64,000 nt of DNA. Source: an uncultured Pseudomonadota bacterium. Lineage in GTDB: Bacteria; Pseudomonadota; Alphaproteobacteria; Rs-D84. This document shows, piece after piece, positions 33,144-63,976 of this stretch. The notes under the pieces are model-generated. The model saw only the letters and a program-made list of their open reading frames with translations, made no database searches and had not been told where the DNA came from. A program made the position numbers and the translations under genes. The first letter of the stretch is position 1. Every line of letters starts with the position of its first letter. The stretch covers positions 1 to 64,000 of the forward strand of contig CACWNX010000002.1 in NCBI GenBank assembly GCA_902762295.1. The letters are read 5' to 3'.

Positions 33144-33181
33144 GGTTTCCTTCCTTTTTTTTATCTTTCCGTCTTTCTTGT

Positions 33182-43789: not shown

Positions 43790-43820
43790 TTCTTTCACTT
43801 TTCTTTTGTTTATCGGACAA

Positions 43821-44221: not shown

Positions 44222-47200
44222 TTATGGTTGCAGACCGGCAGCGACCAGTTCTGCCATTGGATCCCAGCCCGCCGGTGCAGTCGATGACACATTTCCAACA
44301 TGGTAAACATTGTTGTTATAACTGATATTCATACTATCGGTACCACCATTGCCGGCCTCTAATGGTGCATAGCAAACCGCGTTATTCGCCATACCAAAGT
44401 TCAACGCGATCGTCGTCGTCGTCGGCTTGGTTGACAATATCGGGAATTCCAGACCACCACTGGTCTTTAACTTGCTGATGCTTGTATTGCCACCCGGTAC
44501 ATTTACATCACAGTCGGTCACACACTGGTTATTATACCAATGTTCATTTGGTTTCAGACCGATTTCACAGGCAACCTTGCCGTCCCAGTCGGATTCATAG
44601 CCGGTTATATACTGATGCGTTCCGCATGGACATTCTTCGGCAAGGTTTGTTTCACCAAAGACATATCCCATCATATTGGTTGCGTTCGCACCATTTAATC
44701 CATCAAACAATGCCGGTGGCACATAGCCCGACAGGTGCGTTGCACCATAGAATGTTGCATAAAATTCATTCTCGTCGGCAACGGTAATATTCTGGAACAT
44801 ATTCGCCGGTATCGGTCCGGTCAGCCCCGTACATCCCATAAATGTCGCCCAGAACGCACCCGGTGCGCCACCCGTCACATTACGGAATAATCCATTTGGA
44901 ATATCGGTAATGGCAACATCGTTCATAAATGTTCCGGCAAATATGTTTTCCGCCGCAACCGTGACCCCGTCAAATAACCCCGCCGGAATCTCGGTTATTT
45001 TTGGACAGTCACTAAACGTATACGTAAACATGTCAGTTGCACCACCCGAAACATTACGGAATAATCCGGTCGGTATTGTCACCAAACTTGAACAATTATA
45101 GAATGTATCATAGAATAAATTTGGTGCAGAACCGGTGACCCCATCAAACAACCCGGCCGGAATTGCGGTAATCTTAGAACAACCTTGGAATGTTCCGCGA
45201 AACATACCTTCGGCACTGCCACTGACCCCGTCAAATAATCCGGATGGAATTGAGGAAATCTTGGAACATCCTAAAAATGTTCCGCGAAACATACCTTCGG
45301 CACTGCCACTGACCCCATCAAATAATCCGGCGGGTATATTGGCAAGTTTTGAACAGTTTTGGAATGTATTAGCAAACATATGTGTTTCCGCACCCGTTAC
45401 GCCATCAAACAATGTCGACGACACGGATGTTAAATTTGTTGCCCCATCAAATGTGCGATAGAAACGTGGTCGCCGCCCATTTGTTGACCCCAGTGTTGGG
45501 AACACCGCGCCCATTGAACCGGTAACGCTTGCAATCTTGGTCGGTGTACCGTCCGTACTGCCCGAATTATAGAATAATATCGCCGGATTTGTGATGTTAT
45601 CATTATTAATAATACCGTCAAGTGTACTGTATGCCGTTGAAATACCACCAATACGAATATTATGTACACCGCCAGTTGTATATGTGTGTGTGTATCTTTT
45701 TGGAGTTGTATCTGTCTTTACAACCTGTTCAACGGGACCGCCATCGTCCCAGTCGATTCCATATGTTCCGCGAGCGGTGATATGGAAAGTAAATGTATCA
45801 TTTGCGGTCATATTTGTTGTTACGATTGTGAATTTCGGATCAAATGTAAACTGGGCGGTAATTGTTGCCGAACCATTTGCAATCGCATCGGCACCCAATG
45901 TCGCCGCATCACAGCGCACAACCGCCACCGCATCAAATGTATTGCCACCGACACCCCAACCACCAAAACTATATCCAGGTACCGCCATAGACGCCGGCAT
46001 ATTGAATGTTTGGTTATATGTACATGTTGCCGCCGCGTTTGTTGGTGTGCCCGTTGCCGGTGTGACAACATAGCTAAGGTTAATTACCGCCGGCACACAA
46101 ACATTATTGCTGTTTGTGTATCCGGTATCGCATTCCCATTTTGCGGCGAACACTTTGTTGCCGGTATCGGTATCGGAAATTGTCTTGGTTAAATCGCAAT
46201 CATTTGTTTGTATAACATCATTCACGACCGGGCACCAACCCATGAACCGTGCATTTGCGCGCGTTGGCACAACACCAATGGTGACCGGATTACCGTATGT
46301 ATATGTCGCGGGCAGGCCGGTTGTTGTCGGGCAACTGAACGGTGTGGATGTATCGCTGTCATAGAATCTTGGCGCGGTCGTATCCGAAATGTCTAACAAT
46401 CCACATGTATCGGTTCCAATCTGGCGCACCGGGATACCGGTGAATTGCGGGGTACCGACCTCGGATATCTGGAACCCAAACAGTTTCATACGCGCACGAT
46501 TCGCCGCCGTCCCTTTACTTGCATAACTGGCGAATATCGTGAACGGATTTGTTGTTGTTCCAACCGATAAATTGGACAAATCTAATGCCCGGAATGTAAC
46601 ATCGGTCCAGTATTCCAAGTGCTCGGTGCCACTGATAACAAACTGGTGTCGGTTCAAATCTACGGCATCGGTTGATGAATGCACATTCGCGGTGGATAAT
46701 GAATTGTTAAACGAACACTCTAACCATCTGGCACCAGAATACCGTGCACCCGCCGAAAAACACATGTCGCCATTTGTTTTCCAATCACCAAACAGGAATG
46801 CGGTACTGGACCCAGGCAACTTTGTTAACTGGTAATCGGCAAACACGCGGGTATTTTGATTTCCATGGTACAGTGTCTCGATATACTGGTTTGCGCCGGC
46901 GCTGCTTCCGCCTGTGCTTTCAATATATTCAACCGGGGTATAGCCGACAAATGTCCGTGGGTCGGTTCCACCCTGGAAATCGTATGTTATGTTATACTGG
47001 TTCGCCGACCATTGTGCAACAAATGTTTTATCGGTCAAATATGTCCATGTTGAACCGTTGGTCCAATTTGCACTTTCGCCACTTGGCCGCCAACCGGTCA
47101 ATGTATAGCCGGCCTTGGCGCAGGTTCCCGTTGTTGACGGTAATGTCGGTTGTGTACCATATGTCACCGTATCATTGGTCGGTGCGGTACCGGTTGTTTC

Positions 47201-50200
47201 ATCACCACAGGAATAATCAACCGTAAATGTCCGAACCGCACAGCCCGCCAACGTTCCGCTTACCACACCGGTATCGGCGGTGAAATCAAACGATGTTGTA
47301 TCATCGGTGCCACCTAACTGACTGTACCCGGTGTCACATGTTATATTGTAGACACACTGATTTGATGCATTTGTTGTGGCGGTGGCACTGCTGTGTGCGC
47401 CGGCGGTATGTCCACACGCCGTCCAATGTGCATACATGGTTATATTTTCATCCGGGGTATATGATTCACCCGCATCACCAATTTTAACACCATTAACCGC
47501 CTGGGTCCACCAACCATCAAATACATATCCCGGCCGTGACGGTGTCGGCAAAGTAGTCCCAACCGGTGTCCATTGCGCATACCATGTTGTATTCCCCATA
47601 TATCTGCGCGCATACAAAATACCATTGGTTGCAATTTGCCCTTTGCTGCCGATATATTGGGTTGTAGAAGTTGCGGATGAATAATATCCCTTGAATGTAT
47701 AGTTTACATTTTGGGATGCCGGACTAACCGTTGCACCATTTGCGTTGGCATTATATGTTATTGTATATTGCCGTACTGGAATGGTTATACGGTTTGCACC
47801 GGTGGTACTTGTTGAAATCGGTTGGGTGTATTCCGCATCCAGGTATCCGCCATTTTGATGCCATGCATATATTTTTGATGTGCCGTCCGTTGTTGCGTAT
47901 GCATTATCCAGTGTTATTTCATACTGTTTTGCAACACACTCATTACCCGATGCAACAAAACCATAATTGCATTCCCATTTTGCATACAATGTTTTATTAC
48001 CGGTTGCCGTCACCGGAATCGTTAACGAATTTGCATCCCCACAATCGGTCAATGCCGCGTCCGTGCACCACCCCATAAATCGGCTGTGTTCGCGGGTGGG
48101 GGCGGATGCAACGGTTGTTGCCGTTCCGTGTGTGTATGTGGTTGGGTACGACACCGTATTCGGACATGTCAACGGATGCCCAGAAACCGCACTGGTATAG
48201 AACACCGGACTTGATACATCGGCAATATCCAATAACCCACATTCATTCGTTGTGGTATTACGCATTGGAATACCACGCAGTTTCAACGCATAATTCCCCG
48301 AACCGTTCCCAACAGCACTCGTAGATCTGTAAAAAGTGAATCCACGCAGTTGTATTTTTGAAAATGTTCCAATATCACCATTATTATTACGCGCAAACAG
48401 CGGTATATTATGTGCAGTTGTATAATTACCTAGAATACTATAATTATTGCTCTCCGAAGGGGCATAATTACGCACAATTCTATTGTGGCTATCCAATGAT
48501 AATGTATGCCAATCGGTCATATTCAAATTGGTGCTCAGTTGCATGACGGCATCTTTATAATTATAAGTTCTTGGTTTTGTTGAACCCGTTGTCGCACCGG
48601 AATACAACACGAAATTATATCCTGTTCCCCCATCACTATAATTTCCAAACAATGCCGTGTTCGTACTTTCCAACCGTTTAAATGTTATTTCCGCCCAATC
48701 AAGGTGAATCTCTGCCGGGAACCCAAGGTCAATATAGTTCGAACCGTCACTGGCGATATAATCCACCGGCGTATATCCCGCAATATTGCGCGGATCAAAT
48801 CCACCATTGAATTCATAGTTGATATTATACGAATCCGCGGACCATGTCGCGTTTATCGTAACCGCACCCGATGATACACCAAGGTTATCAACATTACATG
48901 TGATTGTCTCGCGTGCATCAAATTCATTCGCCGTACCACTAACCGCCCATTTACCGAATGTATAACCAACCTCGCTTAATGCCGATGGCATTTGAACATC
49001 TTGGCCGTATGTGCATGATGCCGGTTCGGTTGGTGCCGTACCACCATGTCCGCCGTTTGTAAATGTTATCGCGATTTCGTTCGCATCACATACACTGGTG
49101 TTGCCATATGTTACCATTTCGGCATCGTTGCTGAACCCGGTGGCGCACGCGGTCGCGGTCGCAGCATTTGCGGTTGCAACATAGTAATTGGCGGCAACAC
49201 TCATTGCGCATTGGTTCTGGGCGGCGATTCCCGTTCCGGCATCAATATATCCGGTCGGACATGGGTTGATACCCTGGTCATTGGTGGCATCAAATTCAAA
49301 CCCACCGCCCGGGCACCAATTACCCGCCGTACATATCGCGCAACTTGTTGCACCCGCCGGCAGATAATATCCCGCATCACAATTATATGAATCCGTTGAC
49401 CATGTCGCCGTCAATGTTACATTGCCACCGGTCGCCCCAAGGTTAGATTCGTTACAAATTATCGTTGCACCACCATTAAAGTTTTTGTCGTTTGTCGTCC
49501 ATTTCAGGAATGAATAACCCTGGGCATCCATAACCGCCGCCGCCAATTGAACCGTTGAATCGTATGCACACGATTGGTTCGCCGGTTGTGTTCCACCATG
49601 ATCAACCGAATATGTCAATGTATACGAATTCGCCACACAGACATTATTTACATCGGTATATCCCGTATCACATATCCATTTTGCACCGTATGTTTTATTT
49701 TCGGTCGCATTTCCGTCAATCGTCTGGGTCATCGCACACCTTTCCGACTGAATATCATTTATAACCGGACACCATCCCGCAAATGTTGCATGTGCGCGTG
49801 TCGGAACACCGGTTATGGTTGCGCCTTCGCCGTATGTATACTGGGTCGGCATCACGGCGGTCGTTGAACCGGTAAACGCATTGGATGTAATACTGGTCAT
49901 GAATGCGTTCGCCGGGTCGGCGGCATCGGTGTCATAAAGCCCGAACGCACCATCACTTTTCCGCATAACCGGCACACCGTTGAACACACGATTCGCACCA
50001 TCATAAATTGTGAACGATTTAACCTGGCCCAGGAAATACATGCTATACGCATCATTAACACCATGATAGCGCACAAATAACGGTATATTATGTGTGGTGG
50101 TGAACCCGTCTTTGACCGTAAAGGTTTTTGTTGTGTTGTCTATACCCAATATTCCCCTGCGCAGGTCTAATGACATATCGTGCCAATTTGTATCCAACCC

Positions 50201-53200
50201 AACCGATGAATTCACAATATTGTTTGTTGCGCCATATGTATGGAAATATGTACTGGATATCCATAAACCAAATGTATTTCCCATGCCACCATCGGCATAG
50301 TTTCCGAATAATACACTGGACCCGGATGTGCGGCGGAATGTCGATTCGGCGCGCATCGTGTTCGTTGCCGGGAACGCCAAATCAATACGCGAACCCGCAT
50401 TGACGGTACCGGTGGTCTGGATATATTCAATCGGGGTAAAATTGGTCAATGAAATTTCATCGCCACCATTCAAATTATAGTTAATGCGATATGACCGCAC
50501 ATCACATCCCCGCAATGTGCCCGTACCAACACCGGCTGTACCGGTTACGTCGAACATACCGACCAACGTCGAAAAACCGCCACCCAAGCTGTATCCGGTA
50601 TCGCATGTAATGTTATATACACACTGGTTCGATGAATTTGTTCCGGTGTATACGATGGTGCTGTGTGGGCCGGGGGTGTAATTACATTCGGACCAATGCG
50701 CGGTCAATGTTACATCATCTGTTACCGTATAGGTATCGTCCGCATCACCAACATATGTTGCGCCATTGAACCAACCGGTAAACACATATCCGGTGCGTAT
50801 CGGCAATGGCAATGTTATCGTTCCATAACGCCAATTTGCGTACCATACCGCCGAATTGTCGGTATATGCCATGCCTGCGGTTAAACCTGCACCTGTGATT
50901 TCGCCACGATCATCCATGTACAGTTCACTGGTCGCCGGTACCGTGCCACCAATCGGGTGCACCATGTTATAATAACCTCTGAATGTCGCATCAACCCGAA
51001 CAACCGGGGTACTAAGTTCTGCGCCACCCGCAACATCATATGTTACAGTGTTTCTTTTTCTCGGTAAATCTTCCAAAGGTTCTTTGCCAAGGTTTATTGT
51101 ATACATTGAATCTGCATATACACTGTCCTGATATCTCGTATATAATTTGTCTGTGTTCATGGTCGTCGCGCCATTACCATTCAATGTAATGTAATATTCG
51201 CCATTCGCCCAGACCGCCGCAATATTCGCCGTACCCGATGACACCCCCAACACCGCCACCGTACATGGCACGGTCGCGTTCGGTACATATGTCGTATTAT
51301 TCGCCGGTTTCCATCCGGTAAATGTATAACCCGCGAATGTCATGGCACCGGGTGCCACAAATGTTGAATCATATTCACATGTGCCGTTTTGGGGCGCGGT
51401 ACCATGTTCACTTGTATAGTGCAGGACAATTGTATTAGGTGTACAAACATTATTTGTATCGGTATAACCCGCATCGCATGTCCATTTTGCCCAATATTCT
51501 TTGTCGCCGGTGTCGGCCGTTGAAATCGTCTGGGTCGCGGCACAATCGTTCATTTGTGGTGCACCATTGACCACCGGGCACCAACCATCAAATGTCGCAT
51601 GCGGTTTGGTCAAAGTCCCATTAATTGTTGCACCAATTCCGTATGTATAGGTAGTTGGCATACTACCGGTTGATGGACAAGCGAACGGATGTGTGGTGTC
51701 GGCACTTGGGTTGAATGTCCTGCTGACCGTGTCATACAACCCACATTCGTCATTATAACGCACCGGTATACCATTAAATGCCAGGTTTCCATTCGCATCA
51801 TAGAATTTTGCACCATACAACTTCGCATTCATCGGATAGTTAGAATTGTAATTTAACAGGTGATAATTGTTTAATGTATTAACATTACTGGATGTTTTAG
51901 TAATTGAATTACCACCAATTGTTGCCACAGCTTGATTTAATGCAAATTCTACATTGACATTAACACGGTCTGTGAAATTATTTGTGAAATAATATCCGGT
52001 TGAACCAAATCCCCATTTATTATTTGGCGATGCACCAAACCAAGATGGAGATTGTTGATAATATGCAACCAATACCGCATTTTTACCGACCGGGGCGGTT
52101 AAACCTTGAACATCTATGTTCCAAGTTCCATAACCATTAACACCGGTGTTGATATACGAACCATTCGAACTTTCAATATATTCCACCGGGGTATATTCGG
52201 GTGGGATACCTGTACCACCCCCGTTAAGTACATAATTGATATCATATGTACTGGCAACCCATTTGGCATAAATCACACCGTTTCCTGTAAACTGGGTCGC
52301 AGGTGCTACAATCACACCATCGCTATCTATAACCCGGTCACCTGCACCATTTTCTGCCGTATAATACCCATCAAAATCATAACCTGTACGCCGTGGTATT
52401 TGTGATAATTCACTCATCTCATTAACCGCAGCAAGGTTTGAATACCAACCATTCGCGTACTTCACATACAGCGGATTCGGGGTGCCAACCTGGATATTTG
52501 CATCTGGGTGTATCAAATCAACCGTATAAACACCCGCGTTCCACCGAACCGTAAATGTTTTATCCGCCGCATAATTCCATGCATCTATTGTTGTGCCCGA
52601 TGCCCAGTGATCATCAGAGCCAACAACATCCCAACCATCGGCAACATATCCCGGTTTACTACACGCGTTGGTTGATGCCAATGGAACCGAACTATTAAAC
52701 TCCACCGTCTGGTCCGCAATCATTCCCGTTGCCCCCGCACCACAACTGTATGACAATGTATAGTTATTCGGTGTATATTGCGCAACAATATCGGAACCGG
52801 TTGTATAATCCCATGACTGGATTACATCATTCGGCTGATATGGATTTGCAGGTTGTGGATCTTCAACTGCGACACGCCAACCGGCAAATGAATGTCCAAT
52901 CTTGGCACACGACACATTTGCCAAGAATGTATGCGATGCACCATATTCAATACCAACTGCACTTGGGGCGGTGCCTTCGCCGTCGCCACATGTATAGGTC
53001 AAAGTATACTCGCCCGCGGTACATGTCACATTCGCCGTATTGTGATTTGCTTCAACATAACCTGTTGCGCAACTGGTCACATAACTGACCGCACCATTAT
53101 GTGCAACCGTTAATTGACATGTTCCTGTATTACCCAAATTCGGACAATTCTTGGCCCATGCTGCATACAAAGTCTTGTTACTTGTAAATGTTGTTGCCGA

Positions 53201-56200
53201 CGGCAAGCCTAAATCAACCGCAGCCGGTGTCTCATCTGTCCACGCAGATATTTTTAAATACGACGACGATGTATTACCCGATGATGTCATATCGGCCGGT
53301 CTGGACGAACTCTGATAATAGCCACGTAATGTATAACCTTCACGCACCGGTGGATTATCGGCGATATTCTGAATCGTTGTTCCGAAATTCGTTGACGACC
53401 AACCCTCGGCATATTTTTCATACACCTTGGCATAACCGCCCGTCACATTCATTGCGGTCGTTCCATGATTCAGTGTTATTGTATATACTGTTGGTGTCCA
53501 TCCCGCGTACAATGTTGCACTTTGTGCTTTGTCCCAAACCGGACGCGATGCCACATCCGATGCATTATAGTACTGAACACCGTTGGAATAATCGGCATTA
53601 TCGTACCAACCCATAAATGTATAACCGGTCTTATTTGGTGCGGTCGTACTGATAGCGGGCAGGGTGGTCCAATATGTTATAGCCTTGTTCGGGAATTGAC
53701 CATCATCGGCGGTTCCACCATTTAAATTAAATGATATTGTATACGTATCGGCGACACATGCCGTATGTTCGTTATTTTCGGTATAACCCGTACGACATGT
53801 CCATTTTGCCCAATATTCTTTCGTCCCCTCGGTGCCGATTGGCAATGTATATGACAATGCACAATTTTCCAATTCTGCATCGGTGCACCATCCAACAAAA
53901 TCACTGTGTGCGCGCGTTGGTACACCATTAATAGTCGTCACAACATTGGATGCATATGTTGTCGGCAAGGATACCGCACCACCACCGAATGCCACATTCG
54001 CACTGGTTTTAAATTCAATATTTTCTGGATCGGATACATCCAATAACCCGTATGTAGTACCATTCGCATCTTTAACCGGGACACCATTGAACAAGACATT
54101 TGTTCCGTTGTCAATTTCAAAACTGTATATCTTGCCACGGAACCCACTGGCAAATGCATTACTGGTGTTTTTACTGGAACCAATTGCCAATGTCTGGGCG
54201 GTCGTAAAGTCCGCACCAAATGTCAGCGGATTACTTACCCCATCCAACATCAAACCAGAGTAATTTAATACCGCATCATGCACACCCGCCGGCACCGCCA
54301 CATTTGCATAACCACTGGTACCCCAACGCCAGTATGCCGCGGTTGTATAATCCTTGCCTAAATACCCAGAAACACGTCCGCTTGCCGCCCCTGAATTTAC
54401 ATTCCCAAACAATGCGAATGTAGCGGAGTGGGTGTTGCGTTCAAAACGCGTCCGAATTTCATAACTGCGCGATATATTCAGCAAACTATCAAAATATGAC
54501 GAACCATTCGCACTGATATATTCTACCGGAATATATGTTGTATTGCCATTTATATCAAAACCGCCATTATAATTATATGTTATATTAAATACCTTTGGTT
54601 CCCAATGTGCATAAATCGTTGCAGTATTATCGGTCGTAAATGTCTTTGCTGCACTTACAAAATTACCCTGACTATTTATAACCAATTTACCCGTACCATC
54701 CGAATTAGTAAAATAGCCACGGAACCAATATCCTGTCTTAATGGGTGATGTTATACCGCTCATTGGCGTCGCCGTACCCGCCGATGCCGCCGCTGCCGTT
54801 GCATAGAACCCAGAGCCATATTGCAAGTACAGTGTCTGCGGCGATGCCGGCGATGTCGCACCCATATCATTCAGTGTAACCGTAATGATCTTTGGTGTCC
54901 ATTGGGCATACAACGTCAATGTACTACCACTGGATGGGATGCTTGGGTCATCGTCATACATACCATTTTCGTCAAATACCGGGGTTCCACCGCCGTTTGT
55001 TGCCGTTCTATATCCGTTAAATACATACCCGGCATACTGCGGTTTTGTTAATACCAAATCATAATTATAAGTTCCGTTTGATGTGGTTGAAAAACCAACA
55101 CCCGGCATCCAATAAATTGTTCCATTACCACCAGAGCCCGGCGCATCATTCAAAGTAATTGTGTACACTGCGGAACAGGATACAACCTTGGAATTTGCAT
55201 TGGATGAATTATTACCCCAATAATTTTCAAATCCAGTAATATACTGAGCCATGCCGGTTGGACATTCAGTTAACATATTGCTGTTACCCATAAATATATT
55301 TGACATAAAGTCCGTCGCCGTCCCGGTTAGTTTAGATCCAACAAACAATGCCGGTGGAACATAACTGGTCAAACCGGTGCAACCTTCAAATGTACCTTTG
55401 AACGCGTCTTGTTGTTGCGGGCCGTTTATACCACTGAATAATTCGGCAGGAATTGAACCCTGTAACCCCGCACAATTATAGAAAGTATGGAAGAACATCG
55501 AACTTGCCGGTGCACCAACTATACCTGCAAACATTGTTGGCGATAATTGACCAACCATGTTTGAACAACCGGCAAATGTATTTGCAAACATACCCTGGGC
55601 TGGCGCACCACTCAAACCGGCGAACAATCCCGTTGGCAAACTGATCAAACCACAAGTTCCTTCACCAACAGCAAATGTAGAGTCGAACATTTCTCGTGCC
55701 GGCGCACCCGTAATACGATTAAACAATGCCGCCGGCACAGTTCTTAAATCAGCGCAATCCATAAATGTTTCACGGAATAACCCGCGGGCCGCAGATGTGA
55801 TACCGCTAAACAAGTTTCCTGGAACAGTCGATAATCCCGAATATGCGAATGTCCCGTGGAACAAATCTGTGGCGGGGCTTGTAACACCGGCAAACAGGGT
55901 TTCTGGTACCGTTGTCAAATTGTTACATCCAGCGAATGTCAAACTGAACATGCCTTCCCCAGAAGCTAATGCATTACTGAACAAATTCACAGGTACAGAT
56001 GTTATATTGGTATTTGAAAAAGTAGATGCAAACAATCCTTGATTATATGCGGATGTTCCACCATTGATATTTGCAAACAATCCCCCGCCAATACTTGTAA
56101 AACCACTATCTGCAAATGTTGCATTAAATGCATTTGGGCGACCGCCACTAAGTCCACTGAACAATTCCCCCGGAATTGTGCCACTTAATCCAGTATTGCT

Positions 56201-59200
56201 AAATGTATAACCGAACATATTCGCAATTATACTACCGGAAACCCCGTTAAATAACCCCGATGGTATTGAACCTGTCAACGTTGTGCAACCACGGAATGTT
56301 TGATAAAAACTCGGTCGACCACCGTTACCGGTGCCGACGGTCGGAAACACCGCTCCCAACGAACCAGATATAGCTGCAATATTACACGCAGGATTACCAG
56401 TATCAACTTTATAGAAACTGATTGTTGGTATTGTTGGTGTGGTATTATAACCTGTTACAGCATCGGTTGGCTTGCGGCCAAATTTTATCTGATGTGAAGC
56501 ATCACCCGATGTATATGTACAAGTATATACCGCTGCGGTCGTATTACCCGTCCGATCAATCAGATTATTCGTCACACCAGTTCCACTTAACACCCCACCG
56601 GTTCCACAGTCAACATAGAACTTACCCGCAGCCGATATTTTAAACTTTACTGTGCCATTTGCTGGGATTGTTGTCGTTGTCGCCGTAAACACCCAATCTA
56701 CACCCTGATTCCAATGCGCGTATAATGTCGCATCTGGGTTGTTTGGATTATCGCTATATGTCGCAAAATGCGTAGGATTTACCAGTATACGTCCTGTTTC
56801 ATCTATAATCTTACTGCCATTTTCAGGATCATCAAAATACCCAAGGAAATCATAAGTTGTCTTGGTCGGCAATACTATCGGAACTTCGGTTGTGCTAGAT
56901 GGGACAGTATTATAAAATGTTCCATTCTGATTTACAGACCAACCAGTATTGTATTTTTCATAAATCATTTCAGTTGTTGTTCCAGAAACAACCGTTCCAC
57001 CATTCGCATCTAATGCAATACTATATGCCGGACCTTCGACGCACGACACCTTTGGTGCCCAATAATCTGCCAGTGGTTCCGGTTCGTATTTTATCATACC
57101 CGCCGGGCACGATTCATCTAAACCAGAATTATAGAATATGTCAGACATGAAATCTGTGGCATCTTGACCCTCCAAATTTTCAAACAAACGATTTGGAATA
57201 TAACTGCTTAACCCTGTACAGCCATAAAATGTATGGTTGAACAAGCCATCCGACGCACTAATTATGCCAGAGAATAAATTATACGGTAAACTGCCACTTA
57301 ACCTTGAACAACCGGCGAATGTGTACGCAAACATATTATCACCACTACGGTCAATGCCAGAAAACAAATTACTTGGAATATTTCCGGTAAGGTTACTGCA
57401 TCCGTCAAATGTATGCGCAAACATATTATGAAAACCGACCGAAACATTTTGGAACAAATTACCCGGGATAGCACCGGTAAGGTTAACACAACCCTGGAAT
57501 GTTCCATTAAACATATCTTCGGCACCACCGGTAACCGCACTAAATAAATTTGATGGAATAGAGCCTGTTAAGCCACTGCAATTACGGAACGTATTCTTAA
57601 ACATCCCGGCATAGGCACCTGTATAATATTCAAATAATCCCGATGGAATATTACTGGTTATCCCCCAACACCCATCAAATGTACCATTAAATATATCTGA
57701 AAAACTTCCTAGTGTGCCTGTTGCGCCATCTTGATCAAATAAACCCGCTGGGATTGCGCTTATGCTGGTACAATTTTTAAATGTGTTCATAAATAAATTA
57801 CTTGCCACCCCAGAAACACCATTAAACAATGTACTAGGTATATTAACCAAACTCGTACAATCCTGGAAAGTAGCATTAAACCTGTTTTCCCGCGCCCCAG
57901 TTACACCACTAAACAACGTTCCCGATATATATTCTAAATTCGAACAACCTTTGAATGTTTCATAAAACACAGGCTCTGCAACCCCCGACAGGGCTGATGC
58001 CAAACTTGGGAAAGCCGCACCCAACGAACCCGATATACTTGCTACATACTGTGGTGTTCCACCCCTGGCAGAACTGAAACTAATTGCTGCGACCTCAGGA
58101 GATGTGTTATATCCCTTAGTAACATAACTTGAAACACCGATTGTATAGGTTCCACCGGTCACATATCTATGCGAAACCGTTACTGGATTTATGGTGTCAG
58201 TACTAATTGTCTGATATCTATTAGAACTTGAATCGCCCCAATCAATAATAAATGTTCCCATCGCCGCAATTGAAAAACTAAACGTCTGACCTGCGGTAAT
58301 CGGTGTTGTTGTAATAATAAAATCCGGAACCGGGGCGCTCCAACGGGCATATGCGCGACCATTTTCCTCATAGGCATTTAATGCGCTACCATATTGAAAG
58401 AAACCATCTGGGTTAACTATCTGGACACCTTCACCTGAATCGGTTGTCCAATAACCATCAAATGTAAATCCTGTTCTTGATGGATTTTGTGACATTTGTT
58501 CTATTGTATTTCTTAAATTGGCGTCATAATACCAATTATCCCCAGGCACTAAGTACACCTCCGCAGGCGAGGGCGTATTTGTTGCATCTGGATGCATCAA
58601 GGTAATTGCATACGCATCCACTAATTGGGCTGTAAAGGTTTTGTTTTCGGTGTATTCCCATACGAACTGATCGTTTTCGTACAATGTATCCTGAGGGCTA
58701 GTATTGCTTACTGCCCAACCAATAAACACTTTATCCGCCGGCAGAGTGCACCCAACAGAATCATCCCCTCTAAATTTTTTGGCAGTGTACAACTCATCAA
58801 ATGTGGCCGTATCCGTTGCCGCAACCGAACCAGATTCCGAACATTTATAACTAACCGTATAATTCTTGGGAGTCCAGTGTGCATATATAGTCGCCTCGGT
58901 ACCAATTTGATACCAATTACTAGCCGATGTCATATCGGCATTATAATATTGTCTTGGACGATCCAGTATAGAGTCACCGGCCGTAGCATAATATCCCAAA
59001 AAATCATATCCGGGCCATGATGGCGAGCAAATTCCTGACGGTCTGGGCATTGGCGAACCGTATGTCGCGGTTACCTGGGTCACTGCACACGGTGTTCCAC
59101 CATTTGGATCCAATGTAACGGTTGTCTGTGGACTTATCCACCGGGCATATATAGTCGTCGGTCCGCTGAAATAATCGGGCGAAGGCAGTATCATACCATC

Positions 59201-62200
59201 TGCATCTATAATTTGTTCACCACCCGTGGACGCCGATACCGTCCAATAACCACCAAATATTGTCCCCGTTGGTGGAGTAATAGATATCCCCGCACCACCA
59301 CCACTTGTGGATGTTGGATCAAATATACTGCCGGTAATTGGGTATGTGCGATTTACATCTGCGTACCATCCAGCGCCCGATAATTCATAGATATATTTAT
59401 CTGTAGTTGGTGTTCCACCATTCGCTTTCAGTGTAATTTTGTAAGTAGTTGCCGCATTTTCATCAATCCAGTGCGCATACATCGTACCATTATTATTCGT
59501 ATAGTATGTTGTCGCCTCGGAATTATTCAAGAAATCCCCCTCGGCATTAACAATCTGTTTTACATTATTACCCGACGACGCCGATGTCCAATATCCTGCA
59601 AATATATACCCGTTGCGCTCTGGTTTGCGATACATAGTCAATGTTGTGCTTGGATTAGAACCACTGCTGGCGCCACGATCGTTGCCACCTTCGCTTCCAC
59701 GTATAGCACCACCGCCACCGGCATTCACATCACAAATATTATACCAACTGGTTCCGTAATGCAGACCAGCATTTGTACAATTTTGATTCGCTACGCCCAC
59801 CAAACCCGACACCGTGCAACCGCCACTGCCACAGTTATCGTTTATCGCGACCGTATAGTTTTTTGGTATCCAGTGTGCAAACCATTGCGTATTAGTATTG
59901 TATGCCGGACCGGGCACTGTACGCCATCCTGCTGAATTACTGACGAATTCAATAACACGAGTGCCACCGCCGGCTAAATTATAGTACCCGTCAAATGTAT
60001 AACCTGTGCGTGTAGGCATAGATGCATTCGGGATATAAAGTGGACTACTAAACGGTCCGTTTTGACTTGTTGAAAAACCGACATCACGTGTTTCGTAAAT
60101 TGCATTGATGCCGCCCGTTCCGCCAGTTTTATTCAGCGTAATCGTGTACACGGTTGACCATTCTGCATCCAATGTATAAGGTTCAGGCTCAATCGGGACA
60201 ATATTATAATTATCGTTAAATTCACCATTTGCATCAACAACTTGAACTGTCTGAGAATTGGATTTTCTTGTACTATACCCGGCGAAGGCAAATCCGGCGC
60301 GTGTTGGCAGACGATCCATAAAGAACCCACTGCCACCACGTGGATTCGTACCACCACCACCAGGAACACAGTCCACCGACCAACCAACACCATATGTTAA
60401 TTTAACCGAACCACAGTTATTCGGTCCACGACCCGACACAGCATCTGGGTCATCGGTATTGCGGTCATTAAATCCGAATGCATATACTTTCGGTGTCCAG
60501 TGTGCATACAATGTTTCATTCTGGATTGGGGTATATGTTTCACCGGGATTGCCGCGTTTTTGCCCACCAGTAGTCTGATTATACCAACCCTGCAAACTAT
60601 ACCCCGGACGTGTCACCACCGGCAAAGTCACGGTTCCAGATTCCCATTGGGCATACCATCTGATTTCATCCTCTGGAATTTGGGTATAATGCGTTCCCAC
60701 ATCCAAACCAAGTTGCGTTATATAACCGGTTGAACCAACATATTTTTCGGTTCCGGTGGGACTGTCATAGAAACCTTTTAACGAATAGGTTCCCTTGGTA
60801 TTTACATCGGTCAATGTCGCCAACGTCGCATCTGATGCATTTTTATTATAGGTAATATTATATTCCCGAACCGGCACACTCACCGCATTAGCATTTATTC
60901 CCATGGGATAATCATCGGGCCGTCTGATAGCACCATCGTAAGCCGCCCACAGGGCTATAGAATAATTACTGGTCGCACCATTTGGATCCAACCATATACG
61001 GTATTCAATCGCACCACATTTTGGTTGATATGTTCCATCACCGGCTCTGAATATATACCCTGTATTGCAAATGGTGTCATAATTCACATATATGTGTCGC
61101 GGATCATTTTCATCGGCTCTGGCACCAACACTTAACTGACATGTCGCATGATATTGCGTGGCGGTGGCGGTATCGCACTCACGGGCATAAACCGCATACA
61201 AATTGCCGTCGTCGGAATAGGTTGGTGTTGCAACGACCAATCCGTTATTATTCACAAACGCATTTTCCAGCGCATCATTTTCTTCCAATAAATAATCTTC
61301 TTCATTCACCACACCGGAAAAATATCCTACAAAACGATATCCGGAACGGGTTGGGGTGGAAACCGATAACGAATTGCTCCATGATGATGACGACTGGCTT
61401 AATGCCCATCCGGCACCATATTTTTCATACAACGGTCCCGCCGTTCCACCGGTTCCACCGTTTTTATTCAATGTAAAGGCATAAATGACATTATCCGGTT
61501 CACAGGATTGTTTATCATTACTTAAATGATACCCCGAATCGCAGGTTAAAATATATTGGTACGAACCATTATTTGTGACCTGGGTTGTGCAAGCCCCATG
61601 TTCATATGTTAAATTTTCACATCTTTGCACCCAGGTCGCATACCACGCTGTCGAATTTTGCAAGTTCGGTTGCATATACACCAATTTACCGTTTTTCTGG
61701 ATTTTTTGCCCAGATAACTGAATAGAACCTGCATTTAATCTGCCCGTTGGTGTGATTGGGGTAATATCTGTACTGAAATATCCCAAAAATTCATAGCCAT
61801 TTAAATCCGGCACAGATATCGCACTTAAAAAGCTACTGGGAACATAATCGCTCGCACTGGTTGAATAGGTTTTTGACCAACCAACATCATACACTTGATA
61901 AATATAGTTTGTACCGCCACCGCCGGGACTTCCATCCAAGTCAATCGTCACCGGGGTTACACTGCCCGAAGCGCCACTAAGTTGACACGAGATAACTTTT
62001 TCACTGCCTGTGCCATTGCTCCACTGTGGACGAAAACCAGTATCATATTCCGTATAGCCCGATGGGCAGGTTATCGCCATCTTTCCAGCACCCTTAAAGA
62101 TGTCTTGCATAAATGTATTGCCAGGATTATTTGACCAACGTACACTTTTTTTACCAAACAAACCGGGTTGAACAAAATGTGTTCGTTGCACGGTCCCGCC

Positions 62201-63976
62201 ACTGGTCCATACACCACCCAATTTATCACAACCTTCGAATGTGGACTTAAACATACGATCCCACCAACCACCGGTGGGCTCAGTATAAGGATGAAAACCC
62301 AAAGTGTTATCATACCCTATTTCCGCCAACGGAGTGTAGGAACCAACATTTGCAAATAAATTTTCCGGTATCGGTCCGACCAAGCCCCAGCAACCCTTAA
62401 ACGTTCCTTCAAACAAACGTTGTGCATAACCAGTGGCATTCTTAAACAATCCATCTGGAATTGACGTCAGACCCGTACAATAGTTAAAAGTGCTTCTGAA
62501 CGAATTACTACGTGGCTTATAGTAAATTGATAAATCCGTTTTACCAAACAAATTATCCGGAATAGATGTCAGTCCTGAACATCCCCAAAAAGTTTCTGCA
62601 AATGCCCCACCTTGATACGCACCGGATTTAGTTATATACGTAGCCTGTCCAATATCCAATGTATTGCCAAACAAATAATCAGGTATTGCACCGGTAAAAC
62701 CAGCATCTCTGAACGCAGCATAATATTTCGGTTTAATATTCCAGCCATTGATATCATTAGGCCTCTTACCATCACTGGGCATAGAAGTAATACCATCGGA
62801 TTCTAACATCTGCGCATTTGTATCTCTTGTTCTACCCAATTTTCTAAAACCATCGTACATCAAATAGGCGCCACCTGCTATTGCTGCCACCCCCCCCGTA
62901 ACACACCACGCATGCGTGGCATCCATACCGGAATTGCCACCCGATGTACTCACACACGGTGAACTACTAGACCAATCGCCCGGATTTCCTTTATCGAAAC
63001 TCAACACCAGGGCCATGACGCCTGCTGCAGTAACGACGGCACCCATCACAAATTCTAACGTATCAAGTATACTACCAGAAGAATATTCCATATGACTTGG
63101 ACTGCCCACAAATAAATCTTTTGGGATTTGACCTGTCAAATTTGTCGCACCATTAAACAAATTAGCGTACGACGGGGCGACTACTTGTGTTCCACCCGTC
63201 CAAAAAGTATGCGCCCATGATGAATTAAATATCGCACCCAACGAACCACTTACTGTGGCGATTTTTGATGTGTCAACGAACCTTATAACTGGTTTTTCCG
63301 TATTAAATCTTTTCTTTTCTTTTTGCTTTATCGTGCCCGTAATACCAATACGTTTTGGACTGTTGTTATTATACGAACATGTATAGGTATGTTCGCTGTT
63401 GGACTGGGACGATGGACCATTTGCTTTATGACTGGTTCCATTATCTAAATCACAATATACGGTGAATTCACCCTTTGCTGCGATAACAATTTCAAATTTT
63501 TTGTTTGTTAAATTTGTTGTTGTTAATTCAAACGGCACAACCACCTGGGATGAACCCGAACCATACGTTTTACCCCAAATCGCGGTATATTCCTTGCTTC
63601 CTGTGCCAACTGTATAATTATCATCCGAAACCTTTGCCCCAGGCTTAAACATCCAAAGACTGTTACCCGAACGCCATCCGATTATTTTCTTTCCAGATAT
63701 ACTGGGACAACCAATTGACGATGCAACCGCTTCATCGTGGGTTGGCAAACTATATCCATCACAACGTGTCACCGTCCAAATTGAACCATCTGAAAAACCA
63801 TTTACAAACACATCATCACAATTGAAATCTGACAATAAAGGACGATCGGGTGTCTTTACCGTATTAGCAGAATCCCCACAATGCAAGGTTATCCTTACTG
63901 CCCACGACGAATGCGTGGTGAACATGCATGCGCATACTATGCCAAAAATTCCTAAAAACCGCGAAAATCTGAACAT
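44222..63976 (-). CDS. Giant modular surface protein, 6584 residues
   Basis: A 19.8 kb gene without internal stops. Signal peptide: FLGIFGIVCACMFTTHSSWA. The rest is repetitive. It has four BspA-type (DUF285-like) blocks, each opening with a PKD-like beta domain. Between them run many InlB B-repeat/Flg_new-type units (YTITLNKNGG...F.GYY...Y..W). Five lectin-like modules begin P-[VI]-[ED]-Y-I and end FNG-x-P-V. A Cys-rich segment resembles GCC2/EGF-like repeats. Two hydrophobic helices lie near residues 303-376. The C-terminus (NHWDPMAELV-like, ending AAGLQP) has no sortase or autotransporter signal, so the anchor is unknown. AAAGG precedes the ATG at 63976; the promoter lies outside the window. 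Adhesion to host or carbohydrate is inferred from module families. Confidence 0.92.
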   Translation of the reverse strand: MFRFSRFLGIFGIVCACMFTTHSSWAVRITLHCGDSANTVKTPDRPLLSDFNCDDVFVNGFSDGSIWTVTRCDGYSLPTHDEAVASSIGCPSISGKKIIGWRSGNSLWMFKPGAKVSDDNYTVGTGSKEYTAIWGKTYGSGSSQVVVPFELTTTNLTNKKFEIVIAAKGEFTVYCDLDNGTSHKANGPSSQSNSEHTYTCSYNNNSPKRIGITGTIKQKEKKRFNTEKPVIRFVDTSKIATVSGSLGAIFNSSWAHTFWTGGTQVVAPSYANLFNGATNLTGQIPKDLFVGSPSHMEYSSGSILDTLEFVMGAVVTAAGVMALVLSFDKGNPGDWSSSSPCVSTSGGNSGMDATHAWCVTGGVAAIAGGAYLMYDGFRKLGRTRDTNAQMLESDGITSMPSDGKRPNDINGWNIKPKYYAAFRDAGFTGAIPDYLFGNTLDIGQATYITKSGAYQGGAFAETFWGCSGLTSIPDNLFGKTDLSIYYKPRSNSFRSTFNYCTGLTSIPDGLFKNATGYAQRLFEGTFKGCWGLVGPIPENLFANVGSYTPLAEIGYDNTLGFHPYTEPTGGWWDRMFKSTFEGCDKLGGVWTSGGTVQRTHFVQPGLFGKKSVRWSNNPGNTFMQDIFKGAGKMAITCPSGYTEYDTGFRPQWSNGTGSEKVISCQLSGASGSVTPVTIDLDGSPGGGGTNYIYQVYDVGWSKTYSTSASDYVPSSFLSAISVPDLNGYEFLGYFSTDITPITPTGRLNAGSIQLSGQKIQKNGKLVYMQPNLQNSTAWYATWVQRCENLTYEHGACTTQVTNNGSYQYILTCDSGYHLSNDKQSCEPDNVIYAFTLNKNGGTGGTAGPLYEKYGAGWALSQSSSSWSNSLSVSTPTRSGYRFVGYFSGVVNEEDYLLEENDALENAFVNNNGLVVATPTYSDDGNLYAVYARECDTATATQYHATCQLSVGARADENDPRHIYVNYDTICNTGYIFRAGDGTYQPKCGAIEYRIWLDPNGATSNYSIALWAAYDGAIRRPDDYPMGINANAVSVPVREYNITYNKNASDATLATLTDVNTKGTYSLKGFYDSPTGTEKYVGSTGYITQLGLDVGTHYTQIPEDEIRWYAQWESGTVTLPVVTRPGYSLQGWYNQTTGGQKRGNPGETYTPIQNETLYAHWTPKVYAFGFNDRNTDDPDAVSGRGPNNCGSVKLTYGVGWSVDCVPGGGGTNPRGGSGFFMDRLPTRAGFAFAGYSTRKSNSQTVQVVDANGEFNDNYNIVPIEPEPYTLDAEWSTVYTITLNKTGGTGGINAIYETRDVGFSTSQNGPFSSPLYIPNASMPTRTGYTFDGYYNLAGGGTRVIEFVSNSAGWRTVPGPAYNTNTQWFAHWIPKNYTVAINDNCGSGGCTVSGLVGVANQNCTNAGLHYGTSWYNICDVNAGGGGAIRGSEGGNDRGASSGSNPSTTLTMYRKPERNGYIFAGYWTSASSGNNVKQIVNAEGDFLNNSEATTYYTNNNGTMYAHWIDENAATTYKITLKANGGTPTTDKYIYELSGAGWYADVNRTYPITGSIFDPTSTSGGGAGISITPPTGTIFGGYWTVSASTGGEQIIDADGMILPSPDYFSGPTTIYARWISPQTTVTLDPNGGTPCAVTQVTATYGSPMPRPSGICSPSWPGYDFLGYYATAGDSILDRPRQYYNADMTSASNWYQIGTEATIYAHWTPKNYTVSYKCSESGSVAATDTATFDELYTAKKFRGDDSVGCTLPADKVFIGWAVSNTSPQDTLYENDQFVWEYTENKTFTAQLVDAYAITLMHPDATNTPSPAEVYLVPGDNWYYDANLRNTIEQMSQNPSRTGFTFDGYWTTDSGEGVQIVNPDGFFQYGSALNAYEENGRAYARWSAPVPDFIITTTPITAGQTFSFSIAAMGTFIIDWGDSSSNRYQTISTDTINPVTVSHRYVTGGTYTIGVSSYVTKGYNTSPEVAAISFSSARGGTPQYVASISGSLGAAFPSLASALSGVAEPVFYETFKGCSNLEYISGTLFSGVTGARENRFNATFQDCTSLVNIPSTLFNGVSGVASNLFMNTFKNCTSISAIPAGLFDQDGATGTLGSFSDIFNGTFDGCWGITSNIPSGLFEYYTGAYAGMFKNTFRNCSGLTGSIPSNLFSAVTGGAEDMFNGTFQGCVNLTGAIPGNLFQNVSVGFHNMFAHTFDGCSNLTGNIPSNLFSGIDRSGDNMFAYTFAGCSRLSGSLPYNLFSGIISASDGLFNHTFYGCTGLSSYIPNRLFENLEGQDATDFMSDIFYNSGLDESCPAGMIKYEPEPLADYWAPKVSCVEGPAYSIALDANGGTVVSGTTTEMIYEKYNTGWSVNQNGTFYNTVPSSTTEVPIVLPTKTTYDFLGYFDDPENGSKIIDETGRILVNPTHFATYSDNPNNPDATLYAHWNQGVDWVFTATTTTIPANGTVKFKISAAGKFYVDCGTGGVLSGTGVTNNLIDRTGNTTAAVYTCTYTSGDASHQIKFGRKPTDAVTGYNTTPTIPTISFYKVDTGNPACNIAAISGSLGAVFPTVGTGNGGRPSFYQTFRGCTTLTGSIPSGLFNGVSGSIIANMFGYTFSNTGLSGTIPGELFSGLSGGRPNAFNATFADSGFTSIGGGLFANINGGTSAYNQGLFASTFSNTNITSVPVNLFSNALASGEGMFSLTFAGCNNLTTVPETLFAGVTSPATDLFHGTFAYSGLSTVPGNLFSGITSAARGLFRETFMDCADLRTVPAALFNRITGAPAREMFDSTFAVGEGTCGLISLPTGLFAGLSGAPAQGMFANTFAGCSNMVGQLSPTMFAGIVGAPASSMFFHTFYNCAGLQGSIPAELFSGINGPQQQDAFKGTFEGCTGLTSYVPPALFVGSKLTGTATDFMSNIFMGNSNMLTECPTGMAQYITGFENYWGNNSSNANSKVVSCSAVYTITLNDAPGSGGNGTIYWMPGVGFSTTSNGTYNYDLVLTKPQYAGYVFNGYRTATNGGGTPVFDENGMYDDDPSIPSSGSTLTLYAQWTPKIITVTLNDMGATSPASPQTLYLQYGSGFYATAAAASAGTATPMSGITSPIKTGYWFRGYFTNSDGTGKLVINSQGNFVSAAKTFTTDNTATIYAHWEPKVFNITYNYNGGFDINGNTTYIPVEYISANGSSYFDSLLNISRSYEIRTRFERNTHSATFALFGNVNSGAASGRVSGYLGKDYTTAAYWRWGTSGYANVAVPAGVHDAVLNYSGLMLDGVSNPLTFGADFTTAQTLAIGSSKNTSNAFASGFRGKIYSFEIDNGTNVLFNGVPVKDANGTTYGLLDVSDPENIEFKTSANVAFGGGAVSLPTTYASNVVTTINGVPTRAHSDFVGWCTDAELENCALSYTLPIGTEGTKEYWAKWTCRTGYTENNEHTACVADTYTISFNLNGGTADDGQFPNKAITYWTTLPAISTTAPNKTGYTFMGWYDNADYSNGVQYYNASDVASRPVWDKAQSATLYAGWTPTVYTITLNHGTTAMNVTGGYAKVYEKYAEGWSSTNFGTTIQNIADNPPVREGYTLRGYYQSSSRPADMTSSGNTSSSYLKISAWTDETPAAVDLGLPSATTFTSNKTLYAAWAKNCPNLGNTGTCQLTVAHNGAVSYVTSCATGYVEANHNTANVTCTAGEYTLTYTCGDGEGTAPSAVGIEYGASHTFLANVSCAKIGHSFAGWRVAVEDPQPANPYQPNDVIQSWDYTTGSDIVAQYTPNNYTLSYSCGAGATGMIADQTVEFNSSVPLASTNACSKPGYVADGWDVVGSDDHWASGTTIDAWNYAADKTFTVRWNAGVYTVDLIHPDANIQVGTPNPLYVKYANGWYSNLAAVNEMSELSQIPRRTGYDFDGYYTAENGAGDRVIDSDGVIVAPATQFTGNGVIYAKWVASTYDINYVLNGGGTGIPPEYTPVEYIESSNGSYINTGVNGYGTWNIDVQGLTAPVGKNAVLVAYYQQSPSWFGASPNNKWGFGSTGYYFTNNFTDRVNVNVEFALNQAVATIGGNSITKTSSNVNTLNNYHLLNYNSNYPMNAKLYGAKFYDANGNLAFNGIPVRYNDECGLYDTVSRTFNPSADTTHPFACPSTGSMPTTYTYGIGATINGTLTKPHATFDGWCPVVNGAPQMNDCAATQTISTADTGDKEYWAKWTCDAGYTDTNNVCTPNTIVLHYTSEHGTAPQNGTCEYDSTFVAPGAMTFAGYTFTGWKPANNTTYVPNATVPCTVAVLGVSSGTANIAAVWANGEYYITLNGNGATTMNTDKLYTRYQDSVYADSMYTINLGKEPLEDLPRKRNTVTYDVAGGAELSTPVVRVDATFRGYYNMVHPIGGTVPATSELYMDDRGEITGAGLTAGMAYTDNSAVWYANWRYGTITLPLPIRTGYVFTGWFNGATYVGDADDTYTVTDDVTLTAHWSECNYTPGPHSTIVYTGTNSSNQCVYNITCDTGYSLGGGFSTLVGMFDVTGTAGVGTGTLRGCDVRSYRINYNLNGGDEISLTNFTPIEYIQTTGTVNAGSRIDLAFPATNTMRAESTFRRTSGSSVLFGNYADGGMGNTFGLWISSTYFHTYGATNNIVNSSVGLDTNWHDMSLDLRRGILGIDNTTKTFTVKDGFTTTHNIPLFVRYHGVNDAYSMYFLGQVKSFTIYDGANRVFNGVPVMRKSDGAFGLYDTDAADPANAFMTSITSNAFTGSTTAVMPTQYTYGEGATITGVPTRAHATFAGWCPVINDIQSERCAMTQTIDGNATENKTYGAKWICDTGYTDVNNVCVANSYTLTYSVDHGGTQPANQSCAYDSTVQLAAAVMDAQGYSFLKWTTNDKNFNGGATIICNESNLGATGGNVTLTATWSTDSYNCDAGYYLPAGATSCAICTAGNWCPGGGFEFDATNDQGINPCPTGYIDAGTGIAAQNQCAMSVAANYYVATANAATATACATGFSNDAEMVTYGNTSVCDANEIAITFTNGGHGGTAPTEPASCTYGQDVQMPSALSEVGYTFGKWAVSGTANEFDARETITCNVDNLGVSSGAVTINATWSADSYNINYEFNGGFDPRNIAGYTPVDYIASDGSNYIDLGFPAEIHLDWAEITFKRLESTNTALFGNYSDGGTGYNFVLYSGATTGSTKPRTYNYKDAVMQLSTNLNMTDWHTLSLDSHNRIVRNYAPSESNNYSILGNYTTAHNIPLFARNNNGDIGTFSKIQLRGFTFYRSTSAVGNGSGNYALKLRGIPMRNTTTNECGLLDIADVSSPVFYTSAVSGHPLTCPNTVSYPTTYTHGTATTVASAPTREHSRFMGWCTDAALTDCGDANSLTIPVTATGNKTLYAKWECNYGFVASGNECVAKQYEITLDNAYATTDGTSKIYAWHQNGGYLDAEYTQPISTSTTGANRITIPVRQYTITYNANANGATVSPASQNVNYTFKGYYSSATSTTQYIGSKGQIATNGILYARRYMGNTTWYAQWTPVGTTLPTPSRPGYVFDGWWTQAVNGVKIGDAGESYTPDENITMYAHWTACGHTAGAHSSATATTNASNQCVYNITCDTGYSQLGGTDDTTSFDFTADTGVVSGTLAGCAVRTFTVDYSCGDETTGTAPTNDTVTYGTQPTLPSTTGTCAKAGYTLTGWRPSGESANWTNGSTWTYLTDKTFVAQWSANQYNITYDFQGGTDPRTFVGYTPVEYIESTGGSSAGANQYIETLYHGNQNTRVFADYQLTKLPGSSTAFLFGDWKTNGDMCFSAGARYSGARWLECSFNNSLSTANVHSSTDAVDLNRHQFVISGTEHLEYWTDVTFRALDLSNLSVGTTTNPFTIFASYASKGTAANRARMKLFGFQISEVGTPQFTGIPVRQIGTDTCGLLDISDTTAPRFYDSDTSTPFSCPTTTGLPATYTYGNPVTIGVVPTRANARFMGWCPVVNDVIQTNDCDLTKTISDTDTGNKVFAAKWECDTGYTNSNNVCVPAVINLSYVVTPATGTPTNAAATCTYNQTFNMPASMAVPGYSFGGWGVGGNTFDAVAVVRCDAATLGADAIANGSATITAQFTFDPKFTIVTTNMTANDTFTFHITARGTYGIDWDDGGPVEQVVKTDTTPKRYTHTYTTGGVHNIRIGGISTAYSTLDGIINNDNITNPAILFYNSGSTDGTPTKIASVTGSMGAVFPTLGSTNGRRPRFYRTFDGATNLTSVSSTLFDGVTGAETHMFANTFQNCSKLANIPAGLFDGVSGSAEGMFRGTFLGCSKISSIPSGLFDGVSGSAEGMFRGTFQGCSKITAIPAGLFDGVTGSAPNLFYDTFYNCSSLVTIPTGLFRNVSGGATDMFTYTFSDCPKITEIPAGLFDGVTVAAENIFAGTFMNDVAITDIPNGLFRNVTGGAPGAFWATFMGCTGLTGPIPANMFQNITVADENEFYATFYGATHLSGYVPPALFDGLNGANATNMMGYVFGETNLAEECPCGTHQYITGYESDWDGKVACEIGLKPNEHWYNNQCVTDCDVNVPGGNTSISKLKTSGGLEFPILSTKPTTTTIALNFGMANNAVCYAPLEAGNGGTDSMNISYNNNVYHVGNVSSTAPAGWDPMAELVAAGLQP
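44560..45843 (-). repeat. BspA/DUF285-like block 4
   Basis: Opens FTIVTTNMTANDTFTFHI with IDWDDGG. It has nine to ten 29-residue units, two of them nearly identical in DNA. Ends CPCGTHQYITGYESDW, parallel to blocks 2 and 3. Confidence 0.8.
45191..45364 (-). repeat. Near-identical 87-bp tandem duplication
   Basis: Two adjacent 87-bp units. Bases 45191-45229 match 45278-45316 exactly, and after one G/A difference a further 13 bases match. Each encodes one 29-residue unit containing LFDGVSGSAEGMFRGTF. Confidence 0.85.
46315..46950 (-). repeat. Lectin-like module E
   Basis: Begins YTPVEYIESTGGSSAGANQY and ends FTGIPVRQIGTDTCGLLDI. Confidence 0.6.
48150..48780 (-). repeat. Lectin-like module D
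   Basis: Begins YTPVDYIASDGSNYIDLGF and ends LRGIPMRNTTTNECGLLDI. ALFGNYSDGGTGYNFVLY parallels module C. Confidence 0.6.
49100..49390 (-). other. Cys-rich segment of the giant protein
   Basis: CDAGYYLPAGATSCAICTAG, then NWCPGGGF and NPCPTGYIDAGTG. Resembles GCC2/GCC3-type or EGF-like repeats of eukaryotic-style surface proteins. Confidence 0.55.
49855..50447 (-). repeat. Lectin-like module C
   Basis: Begins FTPIEYIQTTGTVNAGSRI and ends RVFNGVPVMRKSDGAFGLYD. It contains VLFGNYADGGMGNTFGLW, shared in form with module D. Confidence 0.6.
51650..52200 (-). repeat. Lectin-like module B, twin of the 15.2 kb protein
   Basis: Begins YTPVEYIESSNGSYINTGV and shares VNGYGTW, TAPVGKNA and APNNKWGFGS-like runs with the 15.2 kb protein. 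The DNA also matches over long stretches, for example gttccataaccatt and ttccaccggggtat. Confidence 0.75.
53960..54540 (-). repeat. Lectin-like module A of the giant protein
   Basis: Begins YIPVEYISANGSSYFDS and ends LFNGVPVKDANGTTYGLLDV. About 190 residues, predicted beta-sandwich (LamG/concanavalin-like). Inferred from pattern only. Confidence 0.6.
55165..56700 (-). repeat. BspA/DUF285-like block 3
   Basis: Opens FTATTTTIPANGTVKFKI. It carries about a dozen units, for example SGLSTVPGNLFSGITSAARG. Ends with CPTGMAQYITGFENYWG. Confidence 0.8.
57030..58330 (-). repeat. BspA/DUF285-like block 2
   Basis: Opens with FIITTTPITAGQTFSFSI and a PKD-like IDWGDSSS. About ten units of the form C.xL.g.IP.xLF.xv.g...mF..TF follow. 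Ends with a CPAGMIKYE segment. Confidence 0.8.
61975..63535 (-). repeat. BspA/DUF285-like block 1 of the giant protein
   Basis: Units such as CTGLTSIPDGLFKNATG and WGLVGPIPENLFANV follow a beta domain opening FELTTTNLTNKKFEI. It is interrupted by a hydrophobic insertion (62840-63080), and the spacing is less regular than in the other three blocks. Confidence 0.75.
62840..63080 (-). other. Two hydrophobic helices inside the giant protein
   Basis: LEFVMGAVVTAAGVMALVLS and, after a Ser/Gly/Cys loop, CVTGGVAAIAGGAYLMYDGF. Both look like membrane helices; they interrupt BspA block 1. Confidence 0.6.

Follow-up and report, generated by a model that had tools for sequence, protein, structure and literature searches.

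The locus described here raises the question of how a protein of more than six thousand residues leaves a Gram-negative cell. It lies in a window of 64,000 nucleotides (the whole stretch of DNA that was analysed), which opens contig 2 (139 kb) in a genome of 836 kb that is 93% complete. The host is probably Ca. Enterousia of the order Rs-D84, a reduced-genome alphaproteobacterium belonging to a group of gut bacteria that have been described as probably partner-dependent (PMC12306168); this assignment fits the genome size of less than one megabase, the alphaproteobacterial set of genes and a genus that comprises well over 100 species. The cell is diderm, since tolQRA, BamA, a secretin and TolC are all encoded. 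In the translation of the window the giant gene runs from ATG to stop without a break over 6,584 codons, and its signal peptide is typical of Sec substrates; the single 19.8 kb frame and the Sec signal of the original prediction are thus both confirmed. Upstream lies tolQRA, named from sequence.

44222..63976, minus strand: gene P0001 for the modular giant protein, 6,584 aa (single open frame; positional orthologues in relatives)
63899..63976, minus strand: Sec-type signal peptide, residues 1-26, MFRFSRFLGIFGIVCACMFTTHSSWA, with an A-x-A-like cleavage site (sequence; hydropathy)
41186..43798, minus strand: secA, kept on the downstream side of the giant locus in relatives (translation; synteny at ~90% identity)

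At the other end of the chain, after the last leucine-rich repeat (LRR) block, our analysis found a conserved domain of ~64-65 aa that had previously been missed.

44294..44488, minus strand: conserved terminal domain, spanning residues 6497-6561, with a tail of 23 aa behind it (own-genome match to profile A1, E 6e-24)

Its consensus is lC.aGit.l.ts.Gl..plya.k.Ttpalnv..n..vCY..L..G...g.lN..yng.tYH.., and two cysteines are near-invariant among the copies, consistent with a disulfide bond. No family in Pfam, NCBIfam or the PDB sequences matches the domain, and its structure model has a pLDDT of about 30-50. A single-sequence search of 148 relatives found it in dozens of them, and a profile search recovered it from 130 of the 201 order genomes that were searched. 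All 130 belong to one family (f1) and represent 9 genera, and a single genome can have as many as 17 copies; the window's own genome has one copy by profile A1, the one on the giant. A class-wide sample contained it in 4 of 385 genomes, all of the window's own genus, and nothing was found in the viral contigs that were scanned. Complete frames with the domain range from 136 to 7,570 aa, and a crude test detects a Sec-type signal in at least 53 of the 75 with a complete 5' end. As judged from these sequences, this is a previously unclassified domain common to hundreds of predicted secreted proteins of the family.

The domain is always found at an end of the chain. In a sample of 96 distinct copies, which leans to the better-scoring ones, 73 end 5 aa or less before the stop codon and 12 end 6-40 aa before it, so that about 88%, an approximate figure, are at the extreme C-terminus. 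The remaining 11 (10 followed by more than 40 aa and one whose 3' end lies beyond the fetched stretch) are N-terminal, directly behind a signal peptide and a short linker that contains Cys, and none is mid-chain. Several proteins (on L017, L019, L030, L107, L123, L127 and L160) show a reversed order, with the domain after the signal peptide and InlB-like repeats behind it. We consider the domain to be probably a tag that holds secreted proteins on the cell surface. The suggestion that the giant has no recognised outer-membrane anchor is correct for a barrel or a known tail, but it overlooked this conserved end, which is common to many secreted proteins.

The domain could also be a recognition signal for export, and not for attachment, read by the secretin machine described below or by an unknown outer-membrane translocon. 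Like the CTERM tags (PEP-CTERM, PMC1569441; GlyGly-CTERM, PMC3237569; MYXO-CTERM, PMC11980579) and the C-terminal domains (CTDs) of the type IX secretion system (T9SS), it is a taxon-restricted homology domain, present in multiple copies within one family and mostly C-terminal on otherwise unrelated Sec-exported proteins. However, it has neither the transmembrane helix nor the basic tail of the three CTERM types, no hydrophobic helix was detected by hydropathy near the C-terminus of the giant, and the domain matches neither an NCBIfam CTERM model nor the T9SS model PF18962. Unlike both classes it sometimes directly follows the signal peptide, and no known sortase or partner was found. Sister families with the same secretin system lack the domain, and a signal restricted to the C-terminus is weakened by the 11 N-terminal copies. 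Export recognition is therefore an unlikely explanation. Attachment is favoured over a one-directional or strictly C-terminal export signal because either terminus can be used. A precedent for retention by a taxon-restricted tag is MYXO-CTERM, which keeps proteins exported by the type II secretion system (T2SS) on the surface (PMC11980579).

The domain may also be an adhesive or ligand-binding module at the outward end of the protein, with attachment provided by another part such as the N-terminal region. It occurs only at an end of the chain, joined to LRR, InlB or Cys-rich adhesin modules, and secreted proteins of 136-146 aa contain little beyond a signal peptide and the domain, both of which would suit such a role. 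A binding module would nevertheless be expected to occur in duplicate or mid-chain, as the other modules do, and it never does so in the sample; moreover, most members have no other visible anchor. We regard this role as improbable, and the domain as an attachment tag as the better description.

The rest of the chain is modular. According to an internal profile, the giant contains four blocks, each made of a PKD-like head, a feature not noted before, and a run of 29-30-residue repeats with the consensus IPxxLFxGVxGxxxxMFxxTFxGCxxL.

63266..63550, minus strand: PKD-like head of block 1, residues 143-237 (internal profile)
62177..63127, minus strand: BspA-type LRR block 1, residues 284-600, with a hydrophobic hairpin inside (internal profile; hydropathy)
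57107..58327, minus strand: PKD-like head and LRR block 2, residues 1884-2290 (internal profile; PHROG 9915, E 2e-66)
55217..56680, minus strand: PKD-like head and LRR block 3, residues 2433-2920 (internal profile; PHROG 9915)
44567..45841, minus strand: PKD-like head and LRR block 4, residues 6046-6470 (model m33297f359e6a; VIA Z 14-18)

The heads match PKD_4 weakly (E 0.039, one member), and the repeats score 18.3 bits against Pfam LRR_5 (PF13306), below its cut-off of 27.7. Despite this, the BspA-type blocks proposed previously are LRR solenoids by predicted fold. Block 4, modelled with the other three blocks as its alignment, has a pLDDT >90 across most of the LRR region; it resembles LRR chains, Treponema pallidum TpLRR (6mlx) among them, with VIA Z scores of 14-18, and in the viral library BFVD it matches a "BspA family leucine-rich repeat surface protein" (E 1e-7). 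Plain Foldseek ranked the PKD-like head at the top, and the LRRs were recovered only by the second look with VIA. The blocks are filed here only as BspA-like: their solenoid is related to TpLRR, as in BspA-family proteins, but their unit stays below the LRR_5 cut-off. The LRR blocks (window 44567-58327) match PHROG 9915, with distant copies in the tail proteins of phages that infect Klebsiella and E. coli, and one LRR module is thus used by phages and by a giant cell-surface protein.

A hydrophobic helical hairpin lies in LRR block 1 (window 62837-63070, residues ~303-380). Its hydropathy peak of 2.26 at residues 303-328 could point to an inner-membrane protein that is held by the hairpin and stays periplasmic. 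Against this, the second hydrophobic segment is weak, hydropathy found no such hairpin in the orthologous giants at the same locus, where it is specific to the window's protein, and a 6.6-kaa LRR/InlB chain kept within the periplasm is implausible, so that we consider this reading very unlikely.

Between the LRR blocks lie InlB-type (Listeria-Bacteroides) repeats, about 33 by internal profile. They clearly exceed the cut-offs of Pfam PF09479 (125.8 bits, E 7e-37, cut-off 27) and NCBIfam TIGR02543, in agreement with what had been proposed, and they are shared with Listeria InlB-type repeat proteins. The second array is interrupted by five modules of ~190 aa, every one inserted within an InlB repeat, an arrangement overlooked until now.

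58310..61921, minus strand: InlB-type repeat array 1, residues 686-1889 (PF09479 E 4e-13; internal profile)
45842..55132, minus strand: InlB-type repeat array 2, residues 2949-6045, with the five inserted modules (PF09479 E 7e-37, 3e-26; internal profile)
53981..54535, minus strand: ~190-aa module 1, residues 3148-3332 (internal profile E 2e-70)
51641..52195, minus strand: ~190-aa module 2, residues 3928-4112 (internal profile)
49868..50440, minus strand: ~190-aa module 3, residues 4513-4703 (internal profile; model m87fe50333ad4)
48188..48775, minus strand: ~190-aa module 4, residues 5068-5263 (internal profile)
46295..46942, minus strand: ~190-aa module 5, residues 5679-5894 (internal profile)
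49082..49393, minus strand: Cys-rich stretch, residues 4862-4965 (sequence)

The five modules are mutually homologous (internal profile E 1e-60 to 1e-79), which agrees with the count of five lectin-like modules in the original prediction, but their identity as lectins of the LamG/ConA-like kind received no support: no Pfam family, PDB sequence or fold matched, the fold search having used a poor model in which the InlB strands flanking module 3 reach a pLDDT of ~80 and the module itself is mostly below 50. An EGF-like segment was not recovered either. Its place is taken by a single Cys-rich stretch for which no Pfam family passes, all matches being sub-threshold and unrelated, none of EGF type. 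The giant differs from BspA and InlB proteins in the repeated alternation of the two modules along a single chain, to which PKD-like heads and a family-specific terminal domain are added.

How the giant crosses the outer membrane was addressed with family-based searches for secretion partners in its own genome. No type I, V or IX partner lies beside the gene within the 44 kb on its downstream side and the roughly 31 kb on its upstream side, so the absence of a dedicated partner nearby, as originally reported, holds over that distance. A known partner next to the gene, which had been named as the observation that would overturn the original view, was thus sought there and not found. A Pfam scan of the whole protein found no autotransporter beta-barrel (PF03797), as a type Va protein would have; a dedicated TpsB partner of type Vb was not found either, the genome's single Omp85 being BamA-sized (760-aa frame) and no neighbour of the gene; and the Por secretion tail of type IX (PF18962) has no match in the genome. 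Type I secretion through TolC might be considered since four TolC-family proteins are encoded. The N-terminal signal is however Sec-type, no RTX repeats were found in the giant and no ABC/HlyD pair adjoins its gene, which makes this route highly improbable.

The genome also encodes a PilN-family secretin with TcpQ, a T2SSE ATPase and a T2SSF platform in one cluster, several type IVb-like prepilins, and a prepilin peptidase whose gene precedes that of the giant by 15 kb on the upstream side. The genes for TcpQ, secretin, PilO, ATPase and platform are joined in a single operon in the outgroup genome G090. A Sec signal on the giant together with a complete secretin machine in the genome is the gene content expected for a cargo of a type IVb pilus or T2SS. 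Sec-dependent proteins, TcpF for example, are known to be exported by type IVb pili (PMC9565799), and because of this precedent and the machine encoded here, Sec plus secretin is plausibly the best encoded route for the giant. Export of TcpF and CofJ is alike in its Sec signal, PilN-type secretin, TcpQ, ATPase, platform and prepilins, but those cargoes are small and their known signals are N-terminal aromatic motifs (PMC9565799), and the gene of the giant is unlinked to the pilus genes. The statement that export is unexplained is therefore right as to an adjacent partner, whereas the question itself is narrowed by a possible route encoded elsewhere in the genome.

The secretin and the terminal domain are not co-distributed. 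The PilN-type secretin is found order-wide, also in families without the domain, and is older and wider than it. A terminal-domain protein adjoins the secretin locus in 2 of ~14 loci examined in family f1, a linkage too weak to be retained; in those two genomes its gene is directly downstream of the secretin (L095 9208-10761; L082 443-2743). In other genomes, that slot often holds other signal-peptide proteins.

Comparison with relatives shows how the giant locus has been kept. In three of them a terminal-domain protein with a signal peptide, like that of the giant, lies between tolR/tolA and secA (G169, 7,570 aa; G074, 4,702 aa; G190, 2,015 aa). In a fourth, G087, the protein at this locus, cut at its 5' end, precedes secA, and in G204 a terminal-domain protein of 1,611 aa follows tolA and precedes dnaE, with secA not adjacent. 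The G204 slot (L068 2490-7325) holds a Cys-rich protein with Ephrin_rec_like stretches and no LRR blocks, in which the terminal domain is kept. Across relatives the length varies from 1.6 to 7.6 kaa and the modules change strongly, yet the terminal domain is constant; the locus is therefore a conserved slot in which the contents are shuffled and the end stays the same. The original view of a giant surface protein built from shuffled modules is supported. Degeneration or misassembly into a functionless frame, conceivable for an incomplete draft assembly, has a negligible chance of being correct given the 19.8-kb stop-free frame with its protein-like, in-frame codon-position bias (composition), the ribosome-binding-like site AAAGG before the ATG, the absence of long near-identical repeats suggestive of misassembly, and the occurrence of orthologous giants at this locus in other, independent genomes. 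Scans for promoter and terminator consensus sequences gave results no better than chance.

Other genes for exported proteins occur at or near this locus. A ~220-aa lipoprotein-like gene product starting with ...C(T/K)KxPxP adjoins the giant in three relatives.

L063 3431-4150, minus strand: lipoprotein-like gene, G169
L065/L066 junction, 657 bp from L065 19764, plus strand: lipoprotein-like gene, G074
L073 3351-4004, minus strand: lipoprotein-like gene, G087

Relatedness could be detected between two of these three genes (E about 1e-5). As a partner of the giant the lipoprotein was rejected, being divergent, limited to three relatives and missing next to the giant gene in the window's own genome. 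The window encodes two more Sec-signal proteins (28524-35506), one of 1,559 aa with a weak match to a Collagen-flanked surface repeat and one of 774 aa that is syntenic in G169.

On balance, and with modest confidence, we favour the explanation that the giant is a Sec-exported, cell-retained adhesin with a terminal sorting or attachment module and a secretin route. The terminal domain would be a small disulfide-bonded beta domain that holds the protein to the cell by one of its ends, while the InlB/LRR stalk would extend outwards. After Sec export, the protein may use the only PilN-type secretin of the genome to cross the outer membrane, a passage that the type IVb-pilus/T2SS-like machine would drive, and the shuffled LRR, InlB and ~190-aa modules could bind partners such as mucus, the host or other microbes. 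The steps of attachment and partner binding are likelier than that of secretin passage. The giants Giant1-5 of Apilactobacillus kunkeei provide a parallel, being proteins of 3-8 kaa with a Sec signal and long repeats, encoded in a small genome, whose conserved C-terminal domain is thought to attach the protein (PMC12863079). They differ in belonging to a Gram-positive species and in having alpha-helical repeats, C-terminal SH3b-like/DUF5776 domains and five tandem genes (PMC12863079).

It is possible, although we propose this only tentatively, that family f1 has a new surface-sorting system of its own, in which a non-transmembrane, disulfide-bonded end tag, placed at either terminus and read by a secretin machine derived from type IVb pili or by an unknown receptor, displays hundreds of adhesins, among them chains as long as 7.6 kaa, on cells whose genomes are smaller than one megabase. 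How the giant leaves a Gram-negative cell has now become a testable question, with a defined ~64-aa domain and a named candidate machine. If the domain is indeed a tag, it would represent a new class of surface-display signal beside the T9SS CTDs and the CTERM tags, and it would reveal the surface proteome in a large group of gut bacteria that are uncultured and probably depend on partners.
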